The position numbers were made by a program, and so were the translations under genes. Positions 13,728-56,760 of a stretch of DNA of 64,000 bases are shown here, piece after piece. Each line of letters opens with the position of its first letter. Position 1 is the first letter of the stretch. The stretch comes from Candidatus Gastranaerophilales bacterium (GTDB lineage: Bacteria; Cyanobacteriota; Vampirovibrionia; Gastranaerophilales; Gastranaerophilaceae). Below the pieces are notes generated by a model. It was given only the letters and a program-made list of their open reading frames with translations, was not told the origin of the DNA and did not search any database. The stretch covers positions 62,001 through 126,000 of the forward strand of contig CALUYO010000002.1 of assembly GCA_944325005.1 (NCBI GenBank), in the 5' to 3' direction.

Positions 13728-14418
13728 ATGAAAAAATTTTTTAATTTTGTTTGTCGGGGGGGGGGAGCAATTTTTAGCTCCTTTACGTTCGTTTACCCTC
13801 GCGGAGGTCTTGGTTACACTCGGAATAATTAGTGTTGTGGCGGCTTTGACTATTCCATCGCTTATACAAAACCATAATAAACGTATTATTGAAACAAGGC
13901 TCCAAAAGTTTTATTCAACAATTAATCAGGCTGTCTTAATGTATGAGTAAGAAAATAATGTCATGAAAGAAGACTGGCATCCAAGTGCACTCTGTTCCAA
14001 TATGAATTCCAGTTCTTATGAATGTAATTTAATTATTTTTAATCAATATATTGCCCCTTATATAAAATACACAAAAATAGAAGATAGGGATAATCGATTA
14101 TATGTGTATTTTACAGATAGTTCAGCCGCACGTTTTACCTATTATGGTCAGGATATTTGGTTTTTCCCAAAATCAACAAAAACATTAATGCCATTTGACT
14201 CACTAAAAATCGGTAAAGACTATTTTGGATTTGCTTTTTATCCGGCCGGCGCCAGCGGCAATAGAAATAGTTACTTTAAAGGTAAAGGTGTTGAACCTTA
14301 TATTACTGTGGACTGGGATGGCACAAAAAAAGGGCTTTATTCTAGTTGTAATAATGCTGCAAAAATTATTCAGTTGAATGGCTGGCTTATTCCTGACGAT
14401 TATCCCTGTCTGCACTAA
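13728..14418 (+). pseudogene. Type IV pilin-like gene, out of frame at a poly-G tract and with an in-frame stop
   Basis: ATG 13728 with AAAGGAG upstream reads MKKFFNFVC and enters a run of ten G (13756-13765), after which it ends at a TAG near 13830. With nine (or twelve) G it would join the frame carrying LRSFTLAEVLVTLGII (from about 13785). That is the class III prepilin N-terminus, with the usual Gly before FTLAE replaced by Ser. The same frame has a TAA at 13948-13950 and then continues to 14418 (NNVMKEDWHPS... ending NGWLIPDDYPCLH), matching its intact paralogues. So there are two lesions, one possibly reversible and one a single-codon nonsense change. An in-frame TTG at 13747 has no ribosome binding site. 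Confidence 0.8.
13756..13765 (+). repeat. Poly-G tract of ten bases in the pilin leader (locus 1)
   Basis: Ten consecutive G on the coding strand within leader-peptide codons. Loss of one G restores the frame from ATG 13728 into the pilin helix. Its flank (TC-G10-AGCAATTTTTAGCT) resembles the non-coding strand of the tracts at 24.6 and 46.9 kb, so the module lies inverted relative to the gene here. Confidence 0.85.
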
Positions 14419-23917: not shown

Positions 23918-24681
23918 TTAATATGTCATTTCCCAGTTATCATTTAATATTTTGCCGAAACAACCGGCGCCAAATGTGCTTGCTTTACAATGAGAATTAT
24001 AGTATGTATCTCTGATATCTTTAAGTGAGCTGCCGCCACAGATCCCTTCGGATTTACAGGAAGGTGTTGCACCCTCTATATCTATTGATCCATCATCGTA
24101 AAATTCAACATAGAACATATCTCTACCACCTATGTTAGGCCCCTGAGGACCATTTATATCAATCAGCATGTGTCCATAATATGATGTAATTCCGTCAACA
24201 GTTTTAGAATAAATGTTGGGTTTATCAATTGCAATTGCTGCACCGCTTGCGAGGGTAACTACAGAAGCGCCGCTCCAGTTTTGTTTTGTGTTAGATGAAA
24301 CCCCGTTTAAATTTTTATAACTTTCAGAAAAACAGGGTGCTTGTACACCAGTTCCACAATCATTTATTACTTTAAAATAATTTAGTGTAAATTCCTTTAT
24401 TTTTGCTGCACTTGTAAGTCCTGCTTCTCTCAGATTTACGGCATTTCTGTCGGTCATATATTGAATAGAAGCCTGTTGGACTTCAGTATAAACTTTATGT
24501 AGTTGCGTAACATATGTTTTTCGTTGATGATTTTGCATCAAAGATGGTACAGTCATCGCTGATACTATACCGATAATCCCGAGAGTAACCAGTACTTCCG
24601 CAAGTGTAAACCCCCTAAGCCCCTTCTTCAGTCTTAGTTTCTCGGGGGGGGGGCAACTTCTAAAGCTTTAAAATCAATCAT
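23918..24681 (-). CDS. Type IV pilin-like protein, frame-interrupted by a poly-C tract (phase-variable candidate, OFF)
   Basis: ATG 24681, with AAGGAGGC 5 bases upstream and a TTGACA-17-AATAAT promoter, reads MIDFKALEVAPPP and enters ten C. It then terminates at a TAA (24634-24636). With eleven or eight C the same start gives a 24-residue leader ending KKGLRG followed by FTLAEVLVTLGIIGIVSAMT, a standard class III prepilin site (G before FTLAE). The rest is intact to 23918 (about 210 residues after the helix), with six cysteines in the C-terminal third. No ATG, GTG or TTG lies in the pilin frame between tract and helix, so the OFF state should be tight. Likely an envelope-associated pseudopilin; assembly partners are outside this window. 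Confidence 0.82.
24644..24653 (-). repeat. Poly-C tract of ten bases in the pilin leader (locus 2)
   Basis: Ten C on the coding (minus) strand, flanked by AGCTTTAGAAGTTG and GAGAAACTA. It encodes the ALxxAPPP-EKL part of the leader. At ten it is out of frame; adding one C or removing two restores the pilin frame. Confidence 0.88.
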
Positions 24682-24706
24682 TTTTGCCTCCTTCTTTAAT
24701 ATTTTT

Positions 24707-46239: not shown

Positions 46240-46988
46240 TTACAACCTGTATGGGTAATCGTCAGGAATTTTCCACCCGTTAGACATAATCTCATAGGCG
46301 CAATATTTTACATTGTCTTTGCATTTACCTTCAAAGGCGGTTATAGTACCATTCTCATAATCACGCATAAAGTGAAAAACGTCTCTTCCTGCCTCATTTG
46401 GATTTTTAGGACCGTTAATATCTATAAATAGATCTGAAACATAAACTGGAGCTCCGGATGCATTTTGAGTGTTTCTTGGAAAAAATATTACAGTACCATC
46501 ATTAAGTTGAAATAATAGTCTGGTAGAAGAAGTTTGCAGGCCCCACATTCCTTCGCCTGCCCACTTGTTAGAAAATGTTGTATTAGTACAACTGCTTGGA
46601 TAGCCACAAGTTGCACAGGTTTCACATAGTCTAGCGCCATTAAAATAAGGTCTCAGATAAGTTGTCCAAAACTCGTTAACATTCATATTGGCTCCATTTG
46701 GCCAATCTTTCATCATACCGTTATCATTTTCGGAAAGCCTTATGGCATTTGTCATAACATTATATGCTTTACTCAAGCGAGTTTCAGCGACTTTTTTATT
46801 TTGATTTGCAATTAACGATGGCATAGTCAATGCTGCAACAACTCCTATAATTCCAAGAGTAATTAAAACTTCGGCAAGAGTAAAACCGATCTCAAAGGTA
46901 GAATATGGTAAAAGGCATCTTGTATCAAAGTTATTAACTGCTAACTTTTCGGGGGGGGGGCAATTTTTAAAGCTGAAATTTTTCTCAT
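46240..46988 (-). CDS. Type IV pilin-like protein, frame-interrupted by a poly-C tract (phase-variable candidate, OFF)
   Basis: ATG 46988 follows AAGGAG by 7 bases and a TTGACT-17-AATAAT promoter. It reads MRKISALKIAPPP, enters ten C and ends at a TAG just behind. With eleven (or eight) C the frame joins a 35-residue leader ending TFEIG and the helix FTLAEVLITLGIIGVVAALT. It then runs open to 46240 (about 212 residues after the helix; CETCATCGYPSSC motif; end NGWKIPDDYPYRL). No start codon lies in the pilin frame between tract and helix. The body closely parallels the intact gene at 56.1 kb (WPNGA, FWTTYLRPYFNGARLCETC). Probably an envelope pseudopilin. Confidence 0.82.
46951..46960 (-). repeat. 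Poly-C tract of ten bases in the pilin leader (locus 3)
   Basis: Ten C on the coding (minus) strand, flanked by AGCTTTAAAAATTG and GAAAAGTTA. The flanks are shared with locus 2, and in inverted orientation with locus 1. Same length, same place in the leader, and same out-of-frame state as at 24.6 kb. Confidence 0.88.
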
Positions 46989-56124: not shown

Positions 56125-56760
56125 ATGAGAATTACAAATAATGGATTTACACTCGCTGAAATTCTTATTACACTTGGTATAATTGGGGTTGTTGCTGCCA
56201 TGACTGTACCTGTGCTTTTTTCTAATAATCGAAAAAAGGTTTTATTAGTGAGTTTACAAAAGTCTTATTCTACTATTACGAATGGTATACGTATGTCAGA
56301 ACTTGATAACGGAATGATGTCAGATTGGCCTAATGGGTCAACACTTGAATTTAACACTTTTTGGAGTACTTACATTCACCCTTATTTCACGGGTTCAAAA
56401 ATTTGTAATACAATGAAAGATTGTGGCTATCGAGAAACAATTGACAGCAATTTCAGAAAACAATGGAGCAATGCACAATGGCGATTAGAATCTACATATG
56501 GCGATGAGCTTCTTTTTCAGCTTGCTGACGGAACCGTTGTACATTGGACAAAAAATACTTATGGTTATAACAACGAAATTTGGTACAGTAATCGAGTATA
56601 TATAGATGTTAATGGGGCAAAGTCGCCAAATACTTATTGCAAAGATGTTTATCCTTTTGAGCGGAGTAATTGTGCAATTCGCCCATATCCTAACTCTTGT
56701 ACTGAATTAATTTTTGAAAACAGCTGGGAATTTCCAAAAGATTATCCGTACAGAATTTAA
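56125..56760 (+). CDS. Type IV pilin-like protein, intact (no homopolymer)
   Basis: 211 residues. Short leader MRITNNG, then FTLAEILITLGIIGVVAAMT, a canonical class III prepilin start with cleavage after Gly7 and Glu5 of the mature protein. The body (SLQKSYSTITNGIRMSELDNGMMSDWPNGS..., end SWEFPKDYPYRI) aligns by eye with the genes at 46.2 and 13.7 kb. It has six Cys in the C-terminal two thirds, possibly disulfide-bonded outside. GGAGGG lies about 9 bases before the ATG. It is the only one of four paralogues without a G/C tract, and the only one in frame. It would need a prepilin peptidase and assembly system from elsewhere. Confidence 0.92.
   Translation: MRITNNGFTLAEILITLGIIGVVAAMTVPVLFSNNRKKVLLVSLQKSYSTITNGIRMSELDNGMMSDWPNGSTLEFNTFWSTYIHPYFTGSKICNTMKDCGYRETIDSNFRKQWSNAQWRLESTYGDELLFQLADGTVVHWTKNTYGYNNEIWYSNRVYIDVNGAKSPNTYCKDVYPFERSNCAIRPYPNSCTELIFENSWEFPKDYPYRI

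Follow-up and report, generated by a model that had tools for sequence, protein, structure and literature searches.

The locus at 24 kb of the window, the 64,000-nucleotide stretch analyzed here from the genome of a Candidatus Gastranaerophilales gut bacterium with kinship to cyanobacteria, raises the question of whether ten C residues that put a prepilin gene out of frame act as a phase-variation switch. By sequence inspection of the minus strand, we found a ribosome binding site (AAGGAGGC, 24686–24693), an ATG (24679–24681), a conserved flank (AAAGCTTTAGAAGTTG, 24654–24670, with AGC 12–14 bases before the run) and, adjoining it, a C10 homopolymer (24644–24653), placing site, start and run where the first-pass annotation had put them. 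Shine-Dalgarno spacing supports this start codon, as does the leader MIDxxAxxVA, which is kept in species G016, G001 and G011. Read through ten C, the frame gives MIDFKALEVAPPPRN and closes at a TAA (24636–24634) with a product of 15 aa; the stop had been described as immediate, but it lies two codons beyond the run. Translation with 11 or 8 C instead yields MIDFKALEVAPPPEKLRLKKGLRGFTLAEVLVTLG..., a full prepilin of about 250 aa with a G↓F prepilin site. In this frame, the body (23918–24643) consists of the remainder of the leader, the G↓FTLAEVLVTLGIIGIVSAMTV helix, the pilin domain and a stop. It has the G↓F-x-x-x-E cleavage motif and hydrophobic helix of a type IV prepilin, and matches Pfam N_methyl (PF07963) at 26.4 bits against a cut-off of 21.2. 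No ATG, GTG or TTG was present in the pilin frame between the run and the helix. Because ten C leave the pilin frame unreached, the gene is OFF in the assembled genome, and the earlier account of the frames and of the missing alternative start holds in these respects. A mechanical ORF list puts the start of this gene at 24556; pilins of Gastranaerophilales are likely mis-annotated, with gene callers dropping the leader or beginning inside the pilin.

The window contains three G/C runs of at least 8 (13756–13765, 24644–24653 and 46951–46960), each exactly 10 long and each in a prepilin leader. These runs cover 9 octamer positions against 0.20 expected, a number reached in none of 100 shuffles. 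The second prepilin, also on the minus strand, has its ATG at 46988, a C10 run (46951–46960) that needs 11 or 8, and a body (46240–46950) with DUF6613 and N_methyl matches in Pfam. The third (13728–14418) is encoded on the plus strand, opposite to the other two; its leader starts with the ATG at 13728 and has a G10 run (13756–13765) that needs 9 or 12. A TAA (13948–13950) lies inside its pilin frame, and this gene is probably a pseudogene. As a contrast case, a run-free prepilin on the plus strand (MRITNNGFTLAEILITLG, 56125–56760) is in frame.

We then considered the whole genome (2,005,513 bases in 27 contigs, 99.95% complete), in which at least 96 G/C runs were found, about 80 of them in prepilin leaders. 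Ninety-one are exactly ten long, 7 are eleven, one is nine and one, from the stretches that were read, is twelve. The 2-Mb genome encodes 115 PF07963 prepilins. The majority are out of frame, and some 20 or more lack a run. In the run-bearing pilins, the run lies inside a surface gene, between the start codon and the remaining ORF. Within the stretches read, 83 runs stand between a ribosome binding site with start codon and a prepilin helix: 76 of length 10 are OFF and one is ON, four of length 11 are ON and one is OFF, making five classified pilin runs ON in the genome. The remaining one is the twelve-run (L047, C2:206480), a G12 pilin out of frame by +1 at its current length, which needs 13 or 10. 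ATG, GTG and TTG are absent between run and helix in 59 of 80 pilins, and the ORFs beyond the run are intact. All 13 run-free pilins with a start preceded by a ribosome binding site are in frame, a weak control since this tally favors frame 0 by construction and 13 others have no ribosome binding site match. Two pilins on contig C3 share the same leader, with 11 residues (ON) at 193 kb (L050) and 10 (OFF) at 210 kb (L051).

To describe the relationship between run and frame, distinct pilin runs of exactly 10 were pooled from this genome, other species of the genus and neighboring genera. One additional base was needed by 154 of 162, none by six and two by the other two. The rule covers C-coding and G-coding pilins in all three codon phases, that is, all six classes, indicating that the distances from start to run and from run to helix changed together many times. 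Of 13 pilin runs of 11, 12 are in frame, and 15 of 16 pilin runs of 9 need two bases, so the flanks have not compensated for changes in length. Thus, the pilin reading frame is set at 11 while the DNA sits at 10. In other genera, 16 of 18 pilin runs need exactly +1. The binomial p for 154 of 162 being ON at 11 is about 1e-62 with relatedness ignored; such p-values overstate independence since related loci are counted separately, and a better argument lies in how widely the pattern extends across letters, phases, distances and species. Unrelated ON lengths, which are typical of contingency loci although not strictly required of them, were found in non-pilin genes but not in pilins, and the uniform +1 excludes ordinary independent contingency loci for the latter. 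The G10 pilin at 13728–14418 in the window, which needs two bases, is one of two runs of exactly 10 in this genome that break the one-base rule. In genus g7 (G060), G10 pilins needing +1 (L270–L280) have a different conserved flank, ACGGACTCTACGCCTGTG before the C-run.

Length 10 also prevails across the genus. In 33 congeneric species, runs of exactly 9, 10 and 11 number 148, 1621 and 150, respectively, the nines including more runs without the G...G flanks; 84% of runs of 9–11 are at 10, with up to 169 exact-10 runs per genome. Run length differs between related copies and between related genomes, as in phase-variable loci. The first-pass annotation had proposed comparing the same pilin elsewhere: orthologues of the focal gene with 74–83% identity keep a MIDxxAxxVAPPP leader and have C10 in G016 (83% identical), C10 in G011 (75%) and C9 in G001 (74%). 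Length therefore varies (10, 10, 10 and 9 with the focal gene included), but all copies are out of frame, and no ON allele was seen among the four species compared, which stands against a DNA-level switch. In one congeneric genome, G025, lengths 10, 11 and 9 are represented by 12, 15 and 5 runs, respectively, and a single C10 is G-flanked; this seems to be a lineage in which the rule is loosening or absent. Exact motif matches in named genomes were to Gastranaerophilales MAGs, 'Fusobacterium sp. CAG:439' or a further bin, and to nothing else. An exact motif scan of IMG/VR gave zero matches, and a phage-borne element was rejected.

Runs also occur in genes for polysaccharide pyruvyl transferase, GT-D, GT92/GT2, GT61, GT9-like and NodZ-like transferases, polysaccharide deacetylase, methyltransferases and a large repetitive surface protein, the methyltransferase and surface-protein labels being assigned by reading the sequence and not by a family search. 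By hand tally, ON lengths in these genes are mixed, at about 10:5:3 for 10, 11 and 12/9, differing from the pilins with p of about 6e-11. Such mixed frames match a classical phasome and argue that ten is the true length. The non-pilin runs of this genome, too, nearly all have length ten; the DNA, and not the frame, thus seems to set the resting length. In another genus, a glycan-gene cluster with seven G/C runs (10, 10, 10, 10, 10, 11 and 14) and mixed frames in 11 kb (L288, G061:C18:2100-13500) looks like a phase-variable surface polysaccharide locus.

We next examined the strand on which the runs lie. Along large contigs of G014, G013 and G028, the strand of the C-run switches at only a few points. 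In G014, the GC skew changes sign within the switch intervals, the plus strand carrying the G-run in regions of positive skew and the C-run in regions of negative skew. Whatever the gene direction, the G-run occupies the GC-skew-leading strand on the contigs that were tested; since genes of both directions are involved, the element tracks the replication arm and not the gene. The misfits are the 11-run at a contig end in this genome (C10:55466) and a few non-G-flanked nines. Polarity is near 100%, exceeding the 88–96% or so that composition alone predicts, so it is not a mere by-product of GC skew, though part could be compositional. On contig C2, run polarity flips between 108961 and 129058, at the right end of the window, near which a replication origin or terminus probably lies.

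The flank follows the same strand. In this genome, 80% of the C-coding and 88% of the G-coding pilins have an AGC on the C-strand, 10–17 bases before the run, compared with 5–9% of shuffled flanks. A weight matrix derived from the flanks of C-coding pilins distinguishes those of G-coding pilins from shuffled ones with an AUC of 0.88. Whichever way the gene points, conservation of the flank thus stays with one DNA strand and does not follow the mRNA strand. Because opposite readings encode unrelated peptides (KALRVA-PPP versus GGG-RNLSS), its likeness is at the level of DNA. The AGC-type flank is confined to the genus; g7 and G061 lack it, which rejects a universal protein-binding site, and neighboring genera have other flanks, suggesting lineage-specific spread instead. 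A coding-sequence element oriented by the direction of replication and not by that of the gene is unusual.

Taken together, these sequence features lead us to favor, at a probability of roughly 55%, a DNA-level phase-variation switch that belongs to a genome-wide set, resting OFF at 10 and turning ON at 11. The proposal of a phase-variable surface gene is likely right in kind, the best available reading given the mixed-frame runs in glycosyltransferase-type genes and the occurrence of lengths 9, 11 and 12; as an isolated, independent contingency locus it was drawn too narrowly, because about 80 pilin runs have a common length of 10, a one-base offset, replication-strand polarity and a conserved flank, features that would not be predicted of ordinary independent loci. 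The object is a set with rules of its own. Replication slippage would alter run length at low frequency, and ten would be the stable resting length, at which about 80 prepilin genes are built OFF, with a peptide of 12–20 aa as product, to be ON at 11. Most pilins would be silent at any time and a few on. Polarity that follows GC skew whatever the gene direction points to a process at replication. The one-base offset may have been selected if 11 is less stable than 10, so that ON cells drift back OFF; the uniform offset would then reflect selection for rare, self-limiting expression, and the benefit may be variation of exposed pilus subunits in the gut. What the sequences display are the frames, the lengths, the flank, the strand polarity, the intact ORFs beyond the run and the differing lengths of paralogues and orthologues; slippage in living cells, the difference in stability and this benefit are inferred. 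Self-limiting expression is plausible given that in Bifidobacterium breve, an unrelated species, a G10 tract was 93% homogeneous and G11 was very mixed (PMC9187656).

Several observations fit this switch poorly. Independent switches should be ON at 9, 10 and 11 about equally, whereas 154 of 162 pilins are ON at 11, and the length spectrum is far sharper than that of Campylobacter (PMC6321876). The mismatch repair genes MutS1 and MutL were found across the genus, so that slippage should be slow and lost mismatch repair is rejected as the driver.

These same observations bring in the possibility, which we consider doubtful but serious, that recoding occurs at the RNA level. Here the DNA would truly be 10, and RNA polymerase slippage would add one base or ribosomes would shift by -1; every pilin would be expressed at a low set fraction, the run acting as a throttle and not as a switch. 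The RNA:DNA hybrid is about 10 long. RNA recoding explains the offset more simply than DNA slippage does. In its favor, exactly +1 is needed by 154 of 162 pilin runs, in all six letter and phase classes, and by 16 of 18 runs of other genera, length 10 is sharp over 33 species, the pilin ORFs are intact though nearly all are out of frame, and mismatch repair genes are present. By contrast, the flank is conserved by DNA strand and not by mRNA strand, and polarity that follows replication is unexpected of an RNA mechanism. Bacterial RNA polymerase insertions were seen in A/T runs only, and G/C runs were reported not to be prone to transcriptional insertion (PMC5574713). Moreover, 9-base runs need +2, and non-pilin genes are often in frame at 10, the glycan genes being mixed.

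Silent pilin cassettes have their comparison system in pilS/pilE of Neisseria, in which pilS cassettes are truncated. Out-of-frame pilins could similarly donate sequence, through gene conversion, to a small number of run-free pilins that are expressed, the G-run serving to start recombination, an arrangement that would fit a genome with 115 prepilins, mostly out of frame, and about 20 or more run-free, and in which polarity and the common flank could reflect recombination. We judge it improbable, since each run-bearing copy has its own ribosome binding site, start and complete ORF in place of the 5'-truncation of pilS, leaders as well as bodies are diverse and near-identical stretches are few, and the frame of an unexpressed leader is conserved across orthologues. 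A systematic sequencing or assembly error, with a true length of 11 and all genes in frame, would suit frames that fit 11 nearly everywhere, the difficulty of sequencing G-runs and a B. breve database length that disagreed with careful counting (PMC9187656), but is slightly less probable still and was rejected, because non-pilin genes that contain such runs often read in frame at 10, the same assemblies also include runs of 11 and 12, and 29 species assembled by several groups give the same outcome.

If the DNA-level switch is correct, few recorded homopolymer phasomes would match this one in size, and it would occur in a gut lineage that is widespread and uncultured. It would also be, to our knowledge, the first phasome with an entire gene family on one resting length and one offset, so that a self-resetting switch could be put to the test. 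Should expression instead be set genus-wide by a one-base RNA insertion (or a -1 ribosomal shift) at replication-placed G10/C10 runs in about 80 pilins per genome, which we hold to be the less expected outcome, this would add a new class of programmed recoding, acting on G/C runs, which are regarded as not prone to transcriptional slippage.

Our search for literature on poly-C or slippage in Melainabacteria/Gastranaerophilales found nothing relevant, and the nearest systems are in other organisms. Like type IV prepilins with a class III signal peptide (PF07963), these proteins have a G↓F(T/S)LAE site, a hydrophobic helix and a short basic leader; unlike the usual ones, the leader is extended by a run-coded APPP or RGGG, and there are 115 copies per 2 Mb. 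Programmed transcriptional slippage, as in bacterial IS genes, tssM of Citrobacter and potyvirus P3N-PIPO, similarly involves a conserved homopolymer, a fixed one-base offset and an intact second frame. The bacterial cases known to us use A/T runs, whereas the runs here are G/C, with a DNA-strand-specific flank and polarity set by replication.

In B. breve UCC2003, sortase pilus operons have a G-tract in the first gene, are OFF in the reference and are switched by replication slippage (PMC9187656). There, as here, a gut bacterium has a pilus gene split near its 5' end by a G10/G11 run, the reference is out of frame, a start after the run is absent and a changed run length restores the frame (PMC9187656). 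The B. breve system comprises two sortase-dependent operons, in which switching has been demonstrated, compared with about 80 single type IV prepilin genes, C- or G-coding, that are candidates for switching and have the +1 offset, flank and replication polarity in common. In the Campylobacter poly-G/C phasome analyzed with PhasomeIt, each strain has 5–81 variable genes, 9G and 10G account for 53% and 26%, and the ON proportion is near neutral in the larger set (PMC6321876). In both systems, genes for surface and glycan functions contain G/C runs, tens of them in all, and changes in length shift the frame (PMC6321876). Unlike Campylobacter, the present lineage has up to 169 exact-10 runs per genome, 84% of its runs of 9–11 at 10, pilins that are mostly OFF by one base, and mismatch repair genes.
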